Of a DNA stretch of 64,000 nucleotides, positions 44,774 to 54,202 are shown in pieces; position 1 is the stretch's first letter; each line of letters opens with the position of its first letter. The notes under the pieces were generated by a model. It was not told where the DNA came from, searched no databases, and saw only the letters and a program-made list of their open reading frames with translations. A program made the translations under genes and the position numbers. Source of the DNA: an uncultured Roseburia sp. (GTDB lineage Bacteria > Bacillota > Clostridia > Lachnospirales > Lachnospiraceae); assembly GCA_947644305.1 (NCBI GenBank), contig CANRYS010000001.1, positions 186,001-250,000 of the forward strand. The letters are read 5' to 3'.

Positions 44774-44822
44774 AGATTGAGATACACGTTTATGAAGAAA
44801 GATATTGAGAAAGAATAAGAAT

Positions 44823-46925
44823 ATGGATAAACGATTGAAATATAGATTAAAACAAGATCTGTCTTTTTTAAAAAACCGGATCAAATACAAATTGTGCCGG
44901 ATCTTTTATGTCACCCAGGATAAAATGGTCTTTTTTGAATCCTATCACGGAAAACGTTGTGGAGACAGCGTAAAAGCTATATATGACGAGATGGCAGAAG
45001 ACGATGCCTTTCGGGACTACACCTTTGTGTGGGCATTTACAGATCCGAAAAAACACAGAGAACTGGCAGAAAATCCCCATACGATCCTAGTAAAAAAAGG
45101 AAGCCGGGATTATTTCCGCTATGCGGCTGCCTCCCGGTTTTGGGTAAATAATGTGAGTGTTCCTGACTTTCTGATTCCTGGGAAACATCAGGTCTATATC
45201 GAAACCTGGCATGGAACACCACTGAAACGGCTGGGCTGCGATATCGAGACGGACAGCGATCCGAGACAGTCCAAAGAGCGTATGCACAAACGTTACCGAA
45301 AAAAAGGAAAGAAAGTGACTCATTTCCTCTCTCCTTCCCCCTATTATAGTGAAAAGATCGCGTCGGCCTTTGGTCTGGAGCATCCGAAGGATAATCCGTT
45401 CTTCGAATGCGGCTACCCCAGAAACGATGCGCTCTTCCACTACAGTGAGGAAGACATCGCGCAAATCCGGGAACGGCTGAGTATCCGGGAGGGACAGAAG
45501 GTGATCCTCTATACTCCCACTTGGAGAGATACAGATTTTCAGGCACAGTCCGGTTTCCGTTACAATGCTTCTGTGGATCTAAAAAAAGTGATGAAAGGGT
45601 TACCGAAGAATTGTGTGCTCTTATTCCGTGCCCATCATCAGATCGGTCTCTCTGGTATTATTGAAAACACACCCGGGATCATCGACGTCACTGATATAGA
45701 CGACATCAATGATCTGTATATCATCAGCGACCTGATGATCACCGACTACTCTTCTACCATGTTTGATTTCAGCGTGCTAAAACGCCCCATGGTATTTCAT
45801 ATGTATGACAGGGAAGAGTATGCCAATAACATCCGGGGTTTTTACTTTGACCTCTCGGAACTGCCAGGTCCCATCACCGAAGATGAGACGGCGCTTGCCC
45901 AGGCGGTCAAACAGCAGTTAGAACACTTTGACTACAGCAAGGATGCCAAATATCAGGCCTTTCATAATAAATTCAATCAATGGGAGGATGGACAGGCTGC
46001 CAGGCGGGTCATCGACAACTGTATTGCCATTCCGGCCCACAAGCCCGGACTGTGGGAATGCCTGATCCAGACCTTCAAAAAGAATATGAATCGCATCCGC
46101 ATCGTATACATGATCGTCCGCTACAACATTACCGGATGGTTTAATATGCACGGTTTTTTCCTGAACAACAATGGAAGACGCCTCATGGATATGAAGGACT
46201 GCCACAAAGGAGAGCGGTGCTTTCTGATCGGCAACGGTCCCAGCCTGTCACCGGAGGATCTCCACCTGTTAAAAGACGAGTACACCTTCGGGACAAACAT
46301 GGTGTACAAAATATTTGATAAAACTGACTGGCGCCCCAGTTTCCACTGCGTATCCGACAGCATCTATGCCACAAAGCTGCGGGACGAGTTGTATAACAAT
46401 GTAAAATCACCGTTATTTACCATTGAGAAAACCTATCATAAAATGACTAAACGAACGCTGGACACCACCTATGTTCACACCATAGCCAGCGAACGATATA
46501 AGGTGAGAGGAAATATCTTCGCCTACTGTATGGTGAAGGCAACCGTTCTGTCCCTTGCCGCCGAGTTTGCCTTTCATATGGGCTTCTCAGAAATCTATCT
46601 ACTGGGGGTGGACTGCACCAATCCCCATGCCGCCGGAGGGCATTTTACCGACAATTATACAACGAAAGAAATCGCCCAGACTGATATTTCCCGTATCAAA
46701 ACCCGTATGAATAAAGAAAATGTAACCACGGAACAAATCGGGGAACATATCATTGACCGGTCCCTGTTCGTCTACCGGCTGCTGAAAAAATATGCTGACC
46801 GACACGGGATCAAGATCTACAATGCTACCCGGGGTGGGAATCTCGAGGTCTTTCCAAGAGTCCAGTTGGAAGATGTTCTCGCAGCCGAAAAACCAGGTCT
46901 GGGTACCCATAAGAAAAAGAAATAG
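44823..46925 (+). CDS. Bifunctional CDP-glycerol-type polymerase with DUF115/GT42-like domain
   Basis: About 700 residues. The N-terminal two-thirds is a TagF/TagB-like glycerophosphotransferase: ETWHGTPLKRLGCDI, GYPRNDAL, YTPTWRDTDF, FRAHHQIGL, ITDYSSTMFDF. A C-terminal domain (about 460-680) has CFLIGNGPSLSPEDL, FGTNMVYKIFD and MVKATVLSLAAEFAFHMGF with EIYLLGVDCT, similar in pattern to DUF115/MptE-like and GT42 sialyltransferases (CstII). It may add a polyol phosphate and a CMP-ulosonic acid to the same polymer. An earlier TTG start at 44805 is possible. The next gene starts 15 bases on. Confidence 0.85.
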   Translation: MDKRLKYRLKQDLSFLKNRIKYKLCRIFYVTQDKMVFFESYHGKRCGDSVKAIYDEMAEDDAFRDYTFVWAFTDPKKHRELAENPHTILVKKGSRDYFRYAAASRFWVNNVSVPDFLIPGKHQVYIETWHGTPLKRLGCDIETDSDPRQSKERMHKRYRKKGKKVTHFLSPSPYYSEKIASAFGLEHPKDNPFFECGYPRNDALFHYSEEDIAQIRERLSIREGQKVILYTPTWRDTDFQAQSGFRYNASVDLKKVMKGLPKNCVLLFRAHHQIGLSGIIENTPGIIDVTDIDDINDLYIISDLMITDYSSTMFDFSVLKRPMVFHMYDREEYANNIRGFYFDLSELPGPITEDETALAQAVKQQLEHFDYSKDAKYQAFHNKFNQWEDGQAARRVIDNCIAIPAHKPGLWECLIQTFKKNMNRIRIVYMIVRYNITGWFNMHGFFLNNNGRRLMDMKDCHKGERCFLIGNGPSLSPEDLHLLKDEYTFGTNMVYKIFDKTDWRPSFHCVSDSIYATKLRDELYNNVKSPLFTIEKTYHKMTKRTLDTTYVHTIASERYKVRGNIFAYCMVKATVLSLAAEFAFHMGFSEIYLLGVDCTNPHAAGGHFTDNYTTKEIAQTDISRIKTRMNKENVTTEQIGEHIIDRSLFVYRLLKKYADRHGIKIYNATRGGNLEVFPRVQLEDVLAAEKPGLGTHKKKK

Positions 46926-46940
46926 AAAGAAGGTATTTTT

Positions 46941-47681
46941 ATGAAAATTATCGGAGTTATCCCTGCACGTTATAAATCCAGCCGTTTTCCCGGCAAACCA
47001 CTGGTAGATATCTGTGGCAAACCAATGATCTGGTGGGTGTACCAGCAGGCCAAAAAAGTCCCTGAATTCGATGAAGTTTACGTAGCTACCGACGATGAGC
47101 GTATCAAAGCAGCCTGTGACGAGCATACTATGAAAGTGATCATGACCTCAGACAAGCACGAAACCGGATCGGACCGGGTGGCTGAGGTAGCATCCAAGGT
47201 AGAGGGCGACCTGTTCATCAACATCCAGGGGGATGAGCCCGTCATCAATCCCGAGATGATTCAGGAGGTCATCTCCATCTTTTTCGAGGATGATTCCGTT
47301 TACTTTGGAAGCCTGAAAAAAGAGATTACCGATCCAGAGGAGATCAAAGCGACCAGTACCGTAAAGGTTGTTACGGACCAACGGGGAGATGCCATGTACT
47401 TCTCCCGCTCTGTGATCCCCTCCAACGTAAAAGACGGACATCTGGCAAGAGTGTTCCGCCATGTAGGAATTTATGCCTATAAGCGGGATTTTCTCAAAGA
47501 ATTTTCAGAAATGACCCAGACCGAGCTGGAACTGGGAGAGGGAATTGAACCACTGCGCGCCATGGAACGGGGCTATAAAATGCGCCTCAAGGAGACAAAA
47601 CATTCCTCCATCGGCGTGGATCTTCCTGAACACATTGAAAAAGTGGAGCGGGTGATCCAGGGAATTGATACATTGGATTAG
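46941..47681 (+). CDS. CMP-ulosonate cytidylyltransferase, KdsB-like
   Basis: 246 residues with the KdsB features VIPARYKSSRFPGKPL, CGKPMIWWVYQQA, VATDDERI, NIQGDEPVI and the C-terminal GVDLPEHIEKVE. KdsB activates 3-deoxy-manno-octulosonic acid as CMP-Kdo, and relatives activate other ulosonic acids. A Gram-positive cell has no lipopolysaccharide, so the product is expected to go into a capsule or teichoic-type polymer. AGAAGG lies before the ATG. No KdsA-like synthase or KdsD isomerase is nearby; the aldolase gene downstream may supply the acid. Confidence 0.9.
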   Translation: MKIIGVIPARYKSSRFPGKPLVDICGKPMIWWVYQQAKKVPEFDEVYVATDDERIKAACDEHTMKVIMTSDKHETGSDRVAEVASKVEGDLFINIQGDEPVINPEMIQEVISIFFEDDSVYFGSLKKEITDPEEIKATSTVKVVTDQRGDAMYFSRSVIPSNVKDGHLARVFRHVGIYAYKRDFLKEFSEMTQTELELGEGIEPLRAMERGYKMRLKETKHSSIGVDLPEHIEKVERVIQGIDTLD

Positions 47682-47762
47682 CCAGTCCCTGTGCAGTGGG
47701 ATCTATGACAACAGGGAGCTAGCCTGCACTCCGGAACTCCCGGAGAGAAAGGATTGTGAGAT

Positions 47763-49373
47763 ATGAAACGAGTACAACTATTGGACTGTACACTGCGGGA
47801 TGGAGGATATCTCGTGGATGCCCAGTTTGGAAATACAGTGATCAAAGGTATGATCAAGGGACTTGCAGAAAGCGGCATCGATGTGGTGGAATGCGGTTTT
47901 TTAAAGGATGAGCCCCACGAAAAGGGAAGTACGATATTTAACAATGCGGCGCAATTGCGCCCCTTTTTGCCGGAGGACCGCCGCCAGGCCTCCTATGTCT
48001 GTCTGGCAGACTACAGCCGGTACACCATCTCCAATCTGGAACCCTTTGACGGCACTTCCATCGATGGCGTCCGCGCCTGTTTCTTTAAAAATGAACGCTA
48101 TGATGTGATTGATTTTTGCCGGGAGATCACAGAAAAAGGCTATAAACTCTATGTACAGCCCGTGGATATCCTGGGTTACTCCGACGCAGAGCTTTTGGAG
48201 CTGATTGAAAAGATCAATCCACTGGAGCCCTATGCCTTTAGTATCGTGGACACTTTCGGTTCCATGTACAAAGAAGATCTTCGGCGAGTATTTTATCTGA
48301 TTGACCGGAATCTGAATGCCTCTTCTCGCATCGGCTTCCACTCCCACAATAATCTTCAGATGTCTTTCTCCTTATCCCAGGAATTTGTGGATATGACCCA
48401 GGGACTAAGAAAGGTTGTCATTGATGCCACCATGGCGGGCATGGGCCGCGGCGCCGGCAACACCAATACCGAACTGGTCATGCAGTATATGAACCGCAAA
48501 TACAATGCCGGCTATGATATCGATGTCGTTCTCGATCTCATCGACAACTACGTCGATGGAATCCGCAGCACTTGTAGCTGGGGATACTCCACCCCCTATT
48601 TCCTCGCCGGTTCCTACAGCGCCCACGTCAACAACATCGCCTATCTGACGGCAAAAGCCGGGATCTCCAGCCGGGATATCAATTATATCCTGAACCGCAT
48701 CGGCGGCGACGCCAGAAAACGTTATGACTATGATCTTCTGGAAAAAACTTATATGGAATATAACGGGACGATCCGGGATGATGAAAAAGATGTGGCTCTG
48801 TTAAAAGAGAATCTTCAGGGCAAGGATATCCTGATGCTGCTTCCGGGTCACAGCATCGTCACCCACAAAGAGGAGATCCTGAAATATTGCCAGGAAAAGA
48901 AACCCGTAGTAGTCAGCGTCAATCTGCTCTCCCACGATTATCCCATCAATTATGTGTATTTTAGCAATAAAAAACGGTATAATTACTGGAAAAACGCAAG
49001 TCGCTTCAAAGAATACAAAAAAATCGTCACCTCCAATGTGACGAACGTCGAGGATAAAAACCAGCATATCATCGATTTTACAAGGCTGGTAAAATGCGGA
49101 TGGGATCAGCTAGACAATTCCGGCATCCTGCTTCTTCGTCTCCTGGACGAACTGAACCCTGCTTCCATCGCCATGGCAGGCTTCGACGGCTACAGCCACG
49201 ATTCCAGCAGCAACAACTACATGCACAAAGAAATGGAAAAAACACGAAATATCAAAAATGCCGATGAGGCAAACCGCGATGTCCAGAGTATGCTGGAAGA
49301 CTATCTCAATACTAGACAGTCTAACTGCCCGATCCAGTTCCTGACACCATCCCGGTTTGAGATCAATCAGTAG
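47763..49373 (+). CDS. HMGL/DmpG-type aldolase fused to DUF115-like domain
   Basis: 536 residues. The first 290 are a DRE-TIM metallolyase: LDCTLRDGGYLVD (Asp ligand), VDTFGSMYKED and GFHSHNNLQMS (HxH metal ligands), then GMGRGAGNTNTE. This group includes 4-hydroxy-2-oxovalerate aldolases, which make or break 2-oxo acids from pyruvate and an aldehyde. Residues about 345-520 form a Rossmann-like part (DILMLLPGHSIVTHKEEI, VVVSVNLL, YVYFSNKKRYNYW, MAGFDGYSHD) related in pattern to DUF115. Between a KdsB-like and a KdsC-like gene it probably makes a 2-keto-3-deoxy acid. Confidence 0.82.
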   Translation: MKRVQLLDCTLRDGGYLVDAQFGNTVIKGMIKGLAESGIDVVECGFLKDEPHEKGSTIFNNAAQLRPFLPEDRRQASYVCLADYSRYTISNLEPFDGTSIDGVRACFFKNERYDVIDFCREITEKGYKLYVQPVDILGYSDAELLELIEKINPLEPYAFSIVDTFGSMYKEDLRRVFYLIDRNLNASSRIGFHSHNNLQMSFSLSQEFVDMTQGLRKVVIDATMAGMGRGAGNTNTELVMQYMNRKYNAGYDIDVVLDLIDNYVDGIRSTCSWGYSTPYFLAGSYSAHVNNIAYLTAKAGISSRDINYILNRIGGDARKRYDYDLLEKTYMEYNGTIRDDEKDVALLKENLQGKDILMLLPGHSIVTHKEEILKYCQEKKPVVVSVNLLSHDYPINYVYFSNKKRYNYWKNASRFKEYKKIVTSNVTNVEDKNQHIIDFTRLVKCGWDQLDNSGILLLRLLDELNPASIAMAGFDGYSHDSSSNNYMHKEMEKTRNIKNADEANRDVQSMLEDYLNTRQSNCPIQFLTPSRFEINQ

Positions 49374-49401
49374 ATTTACGGTGCTAAACAAAGGAGTAAG
49401 T

Positions 49402-49905
49402 ATGAAAGACCTGAAAGAAATCAAATTATTTGCCATGGACGTAGACGGTACTCTTACCGATGGCAAGATCTATATGGGAAACGACGGAGAACTGTTGAAA
49501 GCCTTTAACGTCAAAGATGGGCTCGGCATCAAGCTCCTGAAAGATGCCGGCATCGTTCCAGCCATCATAACAGGAAGAAACTCTCAGATCGTCGCCAACC
49601 GCTGTCAGGAACTGGGCCTGACGGAGTTCCATCAGGGAGTAAAAAATAAGGCGGAAAAGCTCATAGAAGTGATGAAAAAATATGGGCTAACTTCGGAGCA
49701 GACCGCCTACATCGGGGATGACATGAACGATCTCAGCGCCATAAAGACCGCCGGGATCACCTTTGCCCCCTCAGACTGCGCCGAGAGCTTGAAACCCTAT
49801 ATCGACATCCTCCTGACCAGACCTGCCGGACAGGCACCGGTACGGGAGGCCATCGATATGATTCTAAAAGACAGATATGATTTCAGCGAATTTCTGGACC
49901 TATAA
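49402..49905 (+). CDS. HAD phosphatase, KdsC-like
   Basis: About 167 residues of the HAD-IIIA KdsC/YrbI type, with FAMDVDGTLTDGKIYM (the catalytic pair DxD), ITGRNSQIVANRCQELG and YIGDDMNDLSAIKTAG. KdsC removes phosphate from Kdo-8-phosphate, and relatives act on nonulosonate-9-phosphates. ATG 49402 follows AAAGGAG; the in-frame upstream codons at 49357 overlap the aldolase. It closes the cassette, with a strong terminator after it. Confidence 0.88.
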   Translation: MKDLKEIKLFAMDVDGTLTDGKIYMGNDGELLKAFNVKDGLGIKLLKDAGIVPAIITGRNSQIVANRCQELGLTEFHQGVKNKAEKLIEVMKKYGLTSEQTAYIGDDMNDLSAIKTAGITFAPSDCAESLKPYIDILLTRPAGQAPVREAIDMILKDRYDFSEFLDL

Positions 49906-49942
49906 AGGACACAACTCGATGGAACCAAACTGAATTTAAAAT

Positions 49943-49996
49943 AAAGGCGGCCTTTCACTATGATTTATTCCGTCATAGTAAAAGGCCGCCTTTTTT
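49943..49996. terminator. Bidirectional terminator between convergent genes
   Basis: AAAGGCGGCCTTT and AAAGGCCGCCTTT pair, with inner ACTATGA/TCATAGT pairing, then a T run. It serves both the plus-strand cassette and the minus-strand gene ending at 50004. Confidence 0.93.
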
Positions 49997-50003
49997 ATAT
50001 AGC

Positions 50004-52058
50004 TCAGATAAAATCATCCAGATCCACTCGGTCGAACACTTCCAATGCCCCGCCTCTGGTGGCATTGTAGATCGTCACACCGTGCTTGATAGCATGCTCT
50101 TTCAAAAGCGTATAGGCATTCAGTGAGCCGTCCAGAAAATATTTCTCATAATCATCACTCTGGATTCCCAGACGACGCATCCGGTCAACAATCTTTTTCG
50201 CATCTCTTGCCTTCAGCTTATCATCGGTATACCCCTTGATAAAATGGGTGTTGCCGCTGAAGGTAGAGGTACAGTCACAACCGATCAGATAGATCTCAGA
50301 AAATCCCATGTATACCGCCATCTCGATCATCAGCGACATCACCGTAGATCCCGACGGGATATAATAAGCGAGCGGAGAACGCTTCACCTTATATTTATCT
50401 CTGGCAATATTATATAGAATCACCGGATTTTTAGGCTTTTCACGAAAAATATTGTAGGTGGTGATATTCGTAAACAATGGAATCTCCCCGATGGCCTCAT
50501 TGATCTCCTCACTCTGGAATTTGGCACAGATGCGGTCGATCAGGAAATAATAATTCGGACGCCAGATGGTCTCGCCAAATACTTTTGTCACCAAATTACA
50601 GCCAAAGGTGATCTCTCCTTTCTTGTTCAGTCCCTCCAGGTCAGAGAGTTGCAGACTGGGACCATTTCCAACGAGGAAACACCTCTGCCCCTTATGTTTA
50701 TTCTTATAAGAATACAGGAGCTTACTGTTCTCTGTCCGGCAGAGCCCCATACAGCGAAGCATGCCAGAAAAGGCGATGTATCCGTCACGAAAGGCCTTGC
50801 GGATGACATTTTTCGTATGGATCACCCACTTGTAAAAACGAAAAGCAGGACCCATTTTGGTTTTTATGGTTGCTTCGATGACCCTTCTGGCCCCATGGGC
50901 ATCGTCGAGATAATTAAATTTCTCCGTAAAAGCACGATATTTCTCATCATAGACAAAGTTTGCAAACTGGTCTTTGATTGCCTTTACCAGCTCTGGCTGG
51001 GTCTTGACGATAGGTCCCGGAAGCTCATTGATATCAAAATAAAAATCCCGGATCTCACCCTGGTACTCATCCAGGTCATACATATAAAATACCATCGGAC
51101 GCTTGAGATCGCCGTAGTCAAACATGGTAGAAGAATAATCTGTGATCATCAAATCACTGATGATGTACAGATCATTGACATCATCCACCTCCGTCACATC
51201 GATCACGCCTGGTACATCCGAGGCGATATTCTTAAATCCAATCTGGTGATGGGCACGGAACAATAGGACATATTCCTCCCCCAGCTCCTCCATAAGAGTT
51301 TGAAAATCCAGCTCCGTATTGTACTGGAACCCCTCTCCTTTTTTAAACTGGTTGTCCCGCCAAGTCGGTGTATACAACACCACTTTTTTTCCCTCTGGCA
51401 CTCCGATCTCCTCTTTGATGCGTGCCACATCCTCTTCGGTAAATTTAAACAGAGCATCATTTCTCGGATAACCGGTCTCTAAAATAATATTTTCTTTATG
51501 TGACTTGTCCAGCCGGAAGGATGAAATCATTTTCTCAGTATAAAACCTTGAGGGAGAGATCAAATAGTCCATCTTTCTTCCCTTGATGTAATATTTTTTG
51601 TGCATCTCCGACAGAGATTGTCTCGGATCCACCTCATACTGGATATCATTTCCCAGCCTTTTCAGAGGCGTTCCGTGCCAGGTCTCCACGTATACCTGAT
51701 GTGGTCTCGGAATGAGGTAGTTAGGCAGCGCCACATTGTTGAACCAATACTTCGCCTTAGCGTATAAAATAAAGGCAGAACGGGAGTCCTTCAGCACAAC
51801 CCGCGTATGCCGTCTCACTTTCAGGTCGGCATGGGCTTCCACATCATTTACGATCCAAACAAAGCGGAAATCGCGGTATCGCTCATCCTCCATCAGTTCC
51901 TCATAGATCGCCCGGAGATTGCCACCGCACCGCTTGCCACTGAATGCCTCAAACACAATGAGATGTTCATTCAGGATCGGATGTGTCAGGCAGTAAAACC
52001 AAAATTTCAGCCTTTTTTTCAAAAACCGTTTTGTCTTATTCGATAGAAAACCACTCAT
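50004..52058 (-). CDS. Bifunctional CDP-glycerol/ribitol-type polymerase with DUF115/GT42-like domain
   Basis: About 684 residues, a paralogue of the protein at 44823-46925 over its full length. Polymerase part: ETWHGTPLKRLGNDI, YTPTWRDNQF, FRAHHQIGF, ITDYSSTMFDY. C-terminal part: CFLVGNGPSLQLSDLEGL, TFGCNLVTKVF, MSLMIEMAVYMGFSEIYLIG and CDCTS. It follows tarI and tarJ, so it is a candidate ribitol-phosphate transferase (TarL-like) with an added transferase domain. ATG 52058 follows GGAGG; the in-frame GTG 52061 overlaps the TarJ stop by one base. Confidence 0.85.
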   Translation of the reverse strand: MSGFLSNKTKRFLKKRLKFWFYCLTHPILNEHLIVFEAFSGKRCGGNLRAIYEELMEDERYRDFRFVWIVNDVEAHADLKVRRHTRVVLKDSRSAFILYAKAKYWFNNVALPNYLIPRPHQVYVETWHGTPLKRLGNDIQYEVDPRQSLSEMHKKYYIKGRKMDYLISPSRFYTEKMISSFRLDKSHKENIILETGYPRNDALFKFTEEDVARIKEEIGVPEGKKVVLYTPTWRDNQFKKGEGFQYNTELDFQTLMEELGEEYVLLFRAHHQIGFKNIASDVPGVIDVTEVDDVNDLYIISDLMITDYSSTMFDYGDLKRPMVFYMYDLDEYQGEIRDFYFDINELPGPIVKTQPELVKAIKDQFANFVYDEKYRAFTEKFNYLDDAHGARRVIEATIKTKMGPAFRFYKWVIHTKNVIRKAFRDGYIAFSGMLRCMGLCRTENSKLLYSYKNKHKGQRCFLVGNGPSLQLSDLEGLNKKGEITFGCNLVTKVFGETIWRPNYYFLIDRICAKFQSEEINEAIGEIPLFTNITTYNIFREKPKNPVILYNIARDKYKVKRSPLAYYIPSGSTVMSLMIEMAVYMGFSEIYLIGCDCTSTFSGNTHFIKGYTDDKLKARDAKKIVDRMRRLGIQSDDYEKYFLDGSLNAYTLLKEHAIKHGVTIYNATRGGALEVFDRVDLDDFI

Positions 52059-52060
52059 CA

Positions 52061-53113
52061 CTAAGCCTCCCAGATCATAATCGTTTTTCCAAATTCTTTA
52101 TAGATATCAGCTTCAAATGCCTTTTTCATATCCTCGATGGTCCGCACTCGCATCCGGACTCCGATCAGGTTCCGCAGATAGGCCGGGATCTCTGGATTGG
52201 ACTGGTATAGTTCGATAGTCCTGATAAAATCCGCCCGCCCGCTGCGGCTGCTGCCAAACATCCGTAGTCCCTTTTCCAGCATCATCCGCGTATTGATCGC
52301 CGCCTCATTCTCAGAAACTCCAAGGATCGAGATCGTCCCCTCTGGCAGAATGTTGTCGATGATCTGATTGATCGCTTTCGGAGAACCTTCTCCTCCCACG
52401 CACTCAAAGGCATGATCAAATTTCAATCCTACCGGAATATGGGTCACGAGAAAGGTATCGTCAGCAAAGGTAAAATCCGACAGCTTGTCCCGGTTCAGTC
52501 CAAAGACATACAATTTTGTCTCCGGAAACATCGCCTTAAAAAGCAGCGAAGTGATATAACCGAGATTTCCATCTCCCCAGACTCCCACTGCATCCCGCTT
52601 TTTATGGGCGATCTCATCAAAACGGCTCAGGGCATGGACACTGACCGTCACGATCTCGGTAAAAGCCGCCACACAGGGATCGATGCCCTTCGGAAGCCGG
52701 ATCAGTCGGTCCCGTCGGATATCCACCGCATCCTGCATAAAACCGTCAAAACCACTGGCGCGAAACCGGGAATCCAGCCGGTAATTTTCTGCCACCACAT
52801 CTTCGTCTGTCACCCCAGCCACATCCTCTGTGATCTGCTTCGGAGTATTGGGGATCATGACCACCCGTTCTCCCGCCTTAAAATCGCCTTCTGGATCATA
52901 CACTACCTCACCGATCCCCTCATGGATCAGCGCCATGGGCAACTTTTTCCGCAGAATATCGTTGGCCCGCTTCCCCTGATAATACCTCTGGTCTGCATTG
53001 CAGATCGACAGATGGGTGGGACGCACAATCACGGCCCCGCTGCACAGATCTATATCTGTAAATTCCACCTCAAAACGTCTGGGCGCCACAAGGCGGTACA
53101 CTGCGTTTAACAT
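52061..53113 (-). CDS. tarJ: Ribitol-5-phosphate 2-dehydrogenase, TarJ
   Basis: About 350 residues, zinc-alcohol-dehydrogenase family. NAVYRLVAPRRFEVEF at the N-terminus is the TarJ form rather than a general dehydrogenase. Other features are HLSICNADQRYY with the catalytic-zinc region, EGIGEVVYDPEGDF, and VGVWGDGNLGYI for NADP binding. It reduces ribulose-5-phosphate to ribitol-5-phosphate. The start is ATG 53113 (GGAGG 5 bases before) since the longer frame runs into leader element D. It pairs with tarI upstream for CDP-ribitol synthesis. Confidence 0.9.
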   Translation of the reverse strand: MLNAVYRLVAPRRFEVEFTDIDLCSGAVIVRPTHLSICNADQRYYQGKRANDILRKKLPMALIHEGIGEVVYDPEGDFKAGERVVMIPNTPKQITEDVAGVTDEDVVAENYRLDSRFRASGFDGFMQDAVDIRRDRLIRLPKGIDPCVAAFTEIVTVSVHALSRFDEIAHKKRDAVGVWGDGNLGYITSLLFKAMFPETKLYVFGLNRDKLSDFTFADDTFLVTHIPVGLKFDHAFECVGGEGSPKAINQIIDNILPEGTISILGVSENEAAINTRMMLEKGLRMFGSSRSGRADFIRTIELYQSNPEIPAYLRNLIGVRMRVRTIEDMKKAFEADIYKEFGKTIMIWEA

Positions 53114-53124
53114 ATTTTCCTCCA

Positions 53125-53377
53125 TGCGCGCACGCCTTTCGCGCATCACACAAGTTTGGGCGTGCGCGCACAAACTTGCAGAGTGAAAAATTTATTTTTC
53201 ACTCTTTCCTCCAAACATGCCGCCACAAACGGCACTAACAATTCGTGAAAAGCGTGTGACCCTGTGCTTCGCACAGGCACATTCGTACTTCGCTTCGCTC
53301 GTACTCATGATGTCCGTCGCTCAAATGTCAGTGGACAAGCAAGCTTGCCACTGCCGCTCTCGCGACTTTAGTCACAC
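53125..53377 (-). repeat. Structured leader element D before tarJ
   Basis: On the minus strand, from upstream: outer GTGTGAC/GTCACAC stem (53254-53377) enclosing CCTGTGC/GCACAGG (53261-53277) and AGTGG..CCACT (53330-53352); TGCCG/CGGCA (53218-53234); the 24-base palindrome GAGTGAAAAA/TTTTTCACTC (53181-53204); CAAGTTT/AAACTTG (53151-53178) whose loop can pair as a perfect 12-base stem with TGCGCGCACGCC (53125-53136). This last segment touches the GGAGG of tarJ. The 258 bases between tarI and tarJ are almost all structured. Confidence 0.75.
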
Positions 53378-54073
53378 TTTCAACAATGCTTCTGCCACCC
53401 GCAGATCATATGGATAGGTGATCTTTATATTGAATACCTCTCCCTCCACGATGTGCACCTTCTCCCCCTTCATGACAAAGATCTTTGCCGCATCGGTGAG
53501 AAGCTCTTTCTCCGCCGGCGTCAGCGCCTGGTACAGCTCTTTGAGCTTCATAGCCTGGAAAGTCTGGGGCGTCTGACCCTGGTACATCTTCCGCCGTTCT
53601 GGAATATCACTGATCACTACATTGTCCTCACTGCACACGATGGTATCCGTCGCCGCCACCGCGGTATCACACGCCCCGTACTCCTTGGCATAACGGATAT
53701 TTTCCTCCAGGATTCTTTGTGTGACAAAGGGACGCACCGAATCATGGGTAACGATGATCGTCTCCTGATCCAGATTCCCCTCCTGCTCGATATAATCAAT
53801 GGCATTCATGATCGTTTCATTGCGGGTATCGCCGCCCTCCAATACCACGATCCGGTCCTTGTCGGGAATATATCTGCGAATCAGATTCTTTGTGTGGCTG
53901 AGCCATTCCACCGGACAGAGCACAAGAACCTTCTCAAACTCACTCTGCATATAAAATTTTTCCAGGGTGTGAATGAGAATCGGTTTATCCCCGATCAAAA
54001 GATACTGTTTTGGTTTTCCCATATTTCCCATACGGCTTCCCACTCCACCGGCAAGTACTACTCCATATATCAT
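53372..54073 (-). CDS. tarI: Ribitol-5-phosphate cytidylyltransferase, TarI
   Basis: 233 residues, IspD/TarI family: AGGVGSRMGNMGKPKQYL at the CTP site, VEGGDTRNETIMNA, HDSVRPFVTQ and GEVFNIKITYPYDL. Both IspD and TarI share these motifs; adjacency to tarJ decides for TarI, which makes CDP-ribitol from ribitol-5-phosphate. GAGG is before ATG 54073. An in-frame GTG at 54169 inside element E follows a strong GGAGGA and would add 32 residues beginning KNKFFT; I consider it part of the leader. Confidence 0.87.
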   Translation of the reverse strand: MIYGVVLAGGVGSRMGNMGKPKQYLLIGDKPILIHTLEKFYMQSEFEKVLVLCPVEWLSHTKNLIRRYIPDKDRIVVLEGGDTRNETIMNAIDYIEQEGNLDQETIIVTHDSVRPFVTQRILEENIRYAKEYGACDTAVAATDTIVCSEDNVVISDIPERRKMYQGQTPQTFQAMKLKELYQALTPAEKELLTDAAKIFVMKGEKVHIVEGEVFNIKITYPYDLRVAEALLKV

Positions 54074-54085
54074 AGTTTCCTCGTT

Positions 54086-54171
54086 TCTGCGCTGTTTATG
54101 CGAATAAGCGATGTTTGTGGCAAGCAGCGCGCAGACACAAACTCGTTGAGTGAAAAATTTATTTTTCACTC
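54086..54171 (-). repeat. Structured leader element E before tarI
   Basis: The 24-base palindrome at 54148-54171 is identical to that in element D. Next, GTTTGTG/CACAAAC (54113-54142) encloses a loop CAGCGCGCAGA (54125-54135) that can pair with TCTGCGCTG (54086-54094) next to the tarI ribosome binding site. The topology equals that of element D. Confidence 0.7.
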
Positions 54172-54202
54172 TCTCCTCCAATTGGTTCAAATTTATTTCA
54201 AC

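Follow-up and report, generated by a model that had tools for sequence, protein, structure and literature searches.

Which enzyme makes the sugar acid in a locus where genes for its activation and dephosphorylation flank a pyruvate-type aldolase? The question is raised by positions 46941–49905 of a 64,000-nucleotide stretch of DNA from an uncultured Roseburia sp. (GenBank assembly GCA_947644305.1, contig CANRYS010000001.1, positions 186,001–250,000; hereafter "the window"). Open reading frame calls place three consecutive genes on the plus strand here, as in an initial annotation of this DNA: kdsB, encoding a KdsB-like cytidine monophosphate (CMP)-sugar synthetase, an aldolase gene and a kdsC-like phosphatase gene. 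To our knowledge, the dedicated synthases of 3-deoxy-manno-octulosonate (Kdo), sialic acid and similar acidic sugars (KdsA, NeuB) use phosphoenolpyruvate (PEP). The pathways of NeuB and of deaminated neuraminic acid (KDN) make CMP-ulosonates through a PEP-dependent synthase, a phosphatase where needed and a CMP-transferase. We favour, with a probability of about 0.7, a reading in which four genes (TarF-MptE, KdsB, aldolase, KdsC) form a surface-polymer operon whose products synthesise a 2-keto-3-deoxy sugar acid, activate it with CMP and use it, with a pyruvate aldolase in the synthase's place. The DRE-TIM aldolase would form a metal enolate of pyruvate and add it to the aldehyde group of an aldose phosphate, doing the job of the PEP-dependent KdsA or NeuB; KdsC would dephosphorylate the product, making the step irreversible; KdsB would form the CMP-sugar; and its transfer onto a teichoic-acid-like polymer would fall to a Maf/sialyltransferase-type domain, namely the one in the TarF-MptE protein and perhaps, in addition, the second domain of the aldolase. 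The logic of the three steps would be a known one, with a synthase from an unrelated family. The pathway proposed in the initial annotation (aldolase for synthase, then KdsC and KdsB) is probably right in essence, and it is stronger than that annotation could know, because the gene set occurs in several phyla, by record title, and the aldolase carries a domain with a sialyltransferase fold.

The aldolase gene (47763–49373, plus strand; 536 amino acids) is the middle one of the three. Its product is HMGL-like, of the DRE-TIM type (PF00682, E = 1.5e-18; the superfamily fold was also matched), and the intact metal ligands claimed for it were confirmed: the LRDG and HxH motifs are present, positions R12, D13, H193, H195 and N233 did not vary among the 23 sequences aligned, and HxHxN occurred in all 111 rows of a larger set. 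The nearest solved relatives were 3dxi (E = 1.9e-23), which is BVU_2661 of Bacteroides vulgatus, titled only "putative aldolase" and matching the aldolase domain only, and DmpG (1nvm, E = 7e-11). Among structures with a known function, DmpG-type aldolases matched best, and the fold and metal-ligand motifs are those of the DmpG/BphI class II pyruvate aldolases (4-hydroxy-2-oxovalerate aldolases). Nevertheless, membership of the DmpG family proper was rejected, as the enzyme scored 72.9 bits against a TIGR03217 cut-off of 286, and alignment to 1nvm placed Tyr16 at the position of DmpG His21, the catalytic base. The GMGxxxGN motif carried Arg or Lys in 109 of the 111 rows, as opposed to Ala in DmpG, the window's aldolase has an extra C-terminal domain, and its operon contains no aldehyde (acetaldehyde) dehydrogenase gene, the other genes being those for KdsB, KdsC and TarF-MptE. 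BphI is described, in the part of the source available, as adding pyruvate to aldehydes (PMC3962088). Two relatives have other fusions: an IspD-type cytidylyltransferase joined to the aldolase domain (L063, 5569–7326; loci and genomes bear our L and G numbers) and an aldolase bearing a fused family 2 glycosyltransferase domain (L062, 6466–9666).

The two flanking enzymes were identified as KdsB-like and KdsC-like, in agreement with the initial annotation. KdsB (246 amino acids) exceeded the curated kdsB cut-offs of TIGR00466 (193.3 bits; cut-off 155.2) and NF009905 (304; cut-off 255), but fell below that of the equivalog model NF003948 (193.5 versus 281). Its nearest solved structure was 1gq9, a 3-deoxy-manno-octulosonate cytidylyltransferase (E = 1.4e-58) that we take to be the capsule-specific CMP-Kdo synthetase of E. 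coli. The trees and the 111-row and 100-row sets were built without the window's own proteins, with the near-identical L122 and L123 as stand-ins; the quick aldolase tree left out five of the 111 rows (L039, L062, L063, L173 and L189), and the quick CMP-transferase tree covered proteins of 181–299 residues only. In the latter, the KdsB proteins of L122/L123, which are 99% identical to that of the window, belonged to a group of 17 rows that also contains the three KdsA-linked KdsB proteins of L111–L113 (Shimodaira-Hasegawa-like approximate likelihood-ratio test, SH-aLRT, 88), themselves 47–50% identical to the window's KdsB from end to end. Likewise, KdsC exceeded the cut-off of the YrbI/KdsC subfamily (TIGR01670, 164.8 bits; cut-off 106.95) but not that of the KdsC equivalog model (NF007019, 160.2 versus 208), and its nearest solved structure was the KdsC 4um5. 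The order of synthase, phosphatase and CMP-transferase steps would be shared with the NeuB/KDN pathways, whereas this KdsC favours the KdsC equivalog model over the KDN-9-phosphatase model (160.2 versus 113.4 bits, each under its own cut-off).

The linkage of these families was assessed in 80 aldolase loci from GTDB genomes. They are the top 80 among at least 581 confirmed matches, obtained with one seeding motif, so that close relatives are over-represented in the counts, which also contain near-identical pairs (e.g. L122 and L123). Neighbours were labelled by BLAST against reference genes taken from the loci themselves rather than by curated models, with which the thiamine diphosphate (ThDP) enzyme, DegT and polysialyltransferase-like clusters were checked on one or two members only; species names and phyla are those of the record titles, many from metagenome bins. 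A CMP-transferase gene lies directly upstream of the aldolase gene in 53 of the 80 loci (KdsB in 26 and a shorter CTP_transf_3-type protein in 27), and a phosphatase gene directly downstream in 35 (KdsC in 27 and another HAD phosphatase in eight). KdsA and NeuB, the latter included in the BLAST reference set, were each found in none of the 80, and a KdsD-family protein in one. Within four genes of the aldolase, 58 loci have a CMP-transferase (CMP-type loci), 42 of them also with KdsC or another HAD phosphatase; 17 have ThDP/DegT genes without a CMP-transferase, and five have neither. The corresponding numbers for the 30 loci from the window's order are 22, four and four. Adjacent CMP-transferase and aldolase genes (75 pairs) were separated by a median of 3 bp, and aldolase and KdsC genes (37 pairs) by a median of 2 bp, near-duplicates included. 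The CMP-transferase/aldolase linkage is far beyond chance. In the closest relatives (L122–L128; 74–99% identity), kdsB precedes the aldolase gene in seven of seven cases, and in all six whose contig extends far enough, the gene before kdsB encodes TarF-MptE or MptE. By record title, the set is found in bacteria of several phyla. A plasmid of the alphaproteobacterium Leisingera caerulea carries the aldolase (27.8% identity over 72% of the query), an annotated KdsB, which passes NF009905 and fails TIGR00466, and a HAD phosphatase in a different order. A phage context was rejected, as phage records gave one weak match (26.6% identity over 39% of the query).

In the window's genome, the KdsA model TIGR01362 had no match at E = 0.001, the KdsD model TIGR00393 had none over its cut-off (best E = 3.4e-4), and one DAHP-synthase-family match (PF00793) was found. 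Among 295 genomes of the order, KdsA exceeded the TIGR01362 cut-off in nine, plus one fragment (G198); the count at 270 bits or above adds this fragment and leaves out a distant KdsA-like gene of G249. KdsA directly follows the CMP-transferase in sister operons of the same order (L111–L113, L115–L118 and L120), and in some of these, such as L116 and L118, KdsD and KdsC come after KdsA; elsewhere, the aldolase is in that place. The KdsA-linked CMP-transferase of L116 and the aldolase-linked one of L061 share 50% identity. One of the 20 KdsB matches scoring 100 bits or more was partial (G198 C59) and was dropped; of the other 19, 10 had the aldolase within 5 kb, four had KdsA and one had the distant KdsA-like gene. 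KdsB, at the same threshold, was present in 17 of the 295 genomes, 11 of them without KdsA, and eight of these 11 had the aldolase; the association of KdsB with the aldolase across the 295 genomes had a Fisher p of 1e-8. The aldolase query matched 78 genomes at E = 1e-10 or better, in many cases through a paralogue of about 330 residues, and exceeded 150 bits, a threshold chosen to exclude that paralogue, in 29. The paralogue (about 25–30% identity) is widespread in the order (e.g. L064, 8652–9626, on contig 11 of the window's genome), and BLAST with the other reference genes found none of them in six of its loci (L064 and L068–L072). Compared with the canonical Kdo pathway (KdsD, KdsA, KdsC, KdsB), the window's operon is alike in its KdsB and KdsC families and in its logic, and differs in that an aldolase of an unrelated family takes the place of KdsA.

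The initial annotation had overlooked the C-terminal domain of about 200 residues in the aldolase and the TarF-MptE gene upstream of the trio. In a search with the C-terminal domain alone, its fold was that of Maf and of sialyltransferases of the CstII type; identity over the aligned part was 10–16% in the Maf and Cst rows, and a profile search of solved structures gave no significant match (best E = 0.09). The Pfam MptE-like family was matched in two of 19 members of the aldolase family, and not in the C-terminal domain of the window's own. The presence in the aldolase of a second domain with the fold of CMP-sugar glycosyltransferases strengthens its link to ulosonates. The profile of the MptE-like domain matched 5mu5, a Maf glycosyltransferase (E = 5e-5), and alpha-2,3/2,8-sialyltransferases (from E = 9e-5), and by this similarity the upstream TarF-MptE fusion (44805–46925) is a candidate CMP-ulosonate transferase. 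The likeness to the Maf flagellin glycosyltransferase and CstII/CstI is at the level of the fold, and here the fold partner is fused to an aldolase or to TarF. Genes for MptE-like proteins, counted anywhere in the locus, or polysialyltransferase-like proteins, counted within four genes, were found in 26 of the 58 CMP-type loci, in none of the 17 ThDP-type loci and in one of the other five; PF07388 was matched in both polysialyltransferase-like representatives tested, in one of them over 64 residues only.

One of the loci with ThDP/DegT genes, L148 (4742–12363), was annotated with curated models as encoding glucose-1-phosphate cytidylyltransferase (RfbF), cytidine diphosphate (CDP)-glucose 4,6-dehydratase (RfbG), RfbH and an acetolactate-synthase-like enzyme. 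This suggests a branched CDP-sugar pathway resembling those of the yersiniose type, for which a role of YerE is described in the part available of PMC12247030. One idea is that the 2-keto-3-deoxy acid from the aldolase could be either CMP-activated or used as an acyl donor by the ThDP enzyme. On a plasmid of Desulfobaculum bizertense (L210, 2846–7014), RfbH, a split transketolase and a relative of the aldolase lie in a row.

Several observations weigh against the favoured reading. With 17 of the 80 loci of the ThDP/DegT type, having those genes instead of a CMP-transferase, the aldolase family is not confined to ulosonates. Four of the 19 KdsB places have neither synthase nearby, and the window's genome contains two NeuB homologues outside the locus, on contigs C10 and C6. 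The KdsA or NeuB homologue elsewhere that was to speak against the initial proposal is thus absent in the case of KdsA and present in the case of NeuB. We consider it improbable that a NeuB homologue makes the sugar acid and that the aldolase adds to or modifies it. The two NeuB genes themselves would fit this explanation, as would the aldolase relative in the CDP-dideoxysugar locus L148, where the precursor is a nucleotide sugar. However, the C10 NeuB has a CMP-transferase-like gene of its own one gene away, no CMP-transferase was identified near the C6 NeuB, and it is with the aldolase, not NeuB, that KdsB is directly linked in the GTDB loci (26 of 80 versus none). A functional link of these NeuB genes to the window's KdsB is unlikely. 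The C6 gene (L066, 8903–9988, on contig 6) lies beside ATP-synthase-subunit-like genes. Still more improbable is a Claisen-type DRE-TIM synthase that would join an acyl-CoA and a 2-keto acid to make a polymer substituent other than an ulosonate.

The aldolase may alternatively make ordinary Kdo, from pyruvate and D-arabinose-5-phosphate of an unrecognised source, in which case the synthase alone would be unusual; we regard this as unlikely, but it accounts for several observations. In 40 hand-chosen genomes, partial KdsD matches below the cut-off (G198, G251, G286 and G133) not being counted, KdsD exceeded its cut-off in eight, lying beside KdsA in six and beside the aldolase in two (G118 and G230), neither of which has a KdsA match over the cut-off. 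A KpsF-family SIS isomerase is encoded by the second gene after the aldolase gene in Treponema (L175), and the Kdo-type character of KdsB and KdsC, together with the grouping of the L122/L123 KdsB proteins with KdsA-linked ones, points in the same direction. Conversely, the SIS-domain matches in the window's genome, which lacks a KdsD-family match over the cut-off, were a 644-residue protein with two SIS domains, probably GlmS, and a 333-residue protein. Of 20 named genomes, also hand-chosen, 10 had KdsA over the cut-off, and seven of these carry a CMP-type set besides (L142, L146, L153, L165, L177, L183 and L197); in the two spirochaetes tested, no KdsA exceeded the cut-off. Within one genus (g10), the aldolase in similar CMP-transferase neighbourhoods is either full-length, with no KdsD (L050, L052 and L053), or short and accompanied by KdsD (L060 and L061). 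Synthesis of Kdo by all members was rejected as the sole explanation, given the lack of KdsD over the cut-off in the window's genome and the coexistence of KdsA and CMP-type sets in those seven. The claim that the aldolase replaces the usual synthase is partly supported, in that it holds the slot of KdsA beside CMP-transferases and KdsC in several phyla, has KdsD beside it in two genomes and occurs here in a genome without KdsA; it is qualified by the NeuB genes and by the wider use of the family.

Under the four-gene pyruvate-aldolase reading, the Kdo-type character of KdsB and KdsC makes an octulosonate similar to Kdo the most likely product; plain Kdo is not the default, because the window's genome lacks KdsA and KdsD. 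In a genome without arabinose-5-phosphate isomerase, the simplest candidate acceptor would be a pentose phosphate from central metabolism, D-ribose-5-phosphate first, and the sugar would, as initially proposed, not be made by the known route. More tentatively, with somewhat less than even odds, there may be a widespread second CMP-ulosonate route, in which a DRE-TIM pyruvate aldolase fused to a sialyltransferase-fold domain makes sugars other than Kdo and sialic acids (e.g. a Kdo epimer from ribose-5-phosphate), the same family feeding 2-keto-3-deoxy acids to ThDP enzymes in branched-sugar loci as a general C3-extension module of surface glycans.

If gut bacteria and others use a pyruvate aldolase at the synthase step, this would alter the genome-based prediction of such sugars and point to chemically unseen sugars in Gram-positive gut commensals. 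As the same gene set is found in many bacteria, a class of surface sugars may come from an unrecognised route. A role of this aldolase in ulosonate synthesis was not described in the titles and abstract openings searched, which is weak evidence of novelty, as most subscription journals lay outside the search. The available part of a review on gut surface polysaccharides from 2025 names Kdn and legionaminic acid, and neither "Kdo" nor "ulosonic" occurs in it as a whole word (PMC12413058).

Features of the window at and around the aldolase gene
Feature	Position	Strand	Evidence
TarF-like CDP-polyol phosphotransferase with C-terminal MptE-like domain (about 46035–46922)	44805..46925	+	PF04464 E 2e-98, PF01973 E 7.5e-10
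KdsB-like CMP-ulosonate (CMP-Kdo type) synthetase	46941..47681	+	TIGR00466 193.3 bits
DRE-TIM (HMGL-like) pyruvate-aldolase-type domain, residues 1–340	47763..48782	+	PF00682
Aldolase C-terminal domain, residues 341–536, Maf/sialyltransferase-type fold	48783..49370	+	Fold comparison
KdsC-like HAD phosphatase	49402..49905	+	TIGR01670 164.8 bits
Intrinsic terminator (hairpin and T run) separating convergent operons	49943..49993	+	Minimum free energy -31.7 kcal/mol, z -7.72
Second TarF-MptE fusion, convergent	50004..52061	-	PF04464 E 7e-103, PF01973 E 1.6e-14
Zinc-type dehydrogenase, TarJ-like by position beside ribitol-5-phosphate cytidylyltransferase (name inferred from context)	52061..53173	-	PF08240/PF00107
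D-ribitol-5-phosphate cytidylyltransferase (TarI-like)	53372..54190	-	NF001183 358 bits, cut-off 166

The start of the KdsC gene is more likely to be the ATG at 49402, which is preceded by AAAGGAG and gives a protein of 167 amino acids. The kdsB gene begins only 15 bp past the stop of the preceding gene on the same strand and is therefore probably internal to a longer operon, the first gene of which is probably that TarF-MptE fusion, one gene earlier than the trio. The single promoter initially placed upstream of kdsB was accordingly not supported, and promoter-like matches on both strands of positions 46000–51000 numbered 13, somewhat more than the mean of 7.2 (standard deviation 2.5) in shuffled sequences. 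By contrast, the terminator in the same annotation was recovered as the stable hairpin after the KdsC gene. The trio is flanked by two convergent TarF-MptE fusions, each with a polyol-phosphate transferase and an MptE-like domain. On the far side, the second fusion, the dehydrogenase and the ribitol-5-phosphate cytidylyltransferase run in the opposite direction, which places the trio in a setting of teichoic-acid-like surface polymer synthesis.

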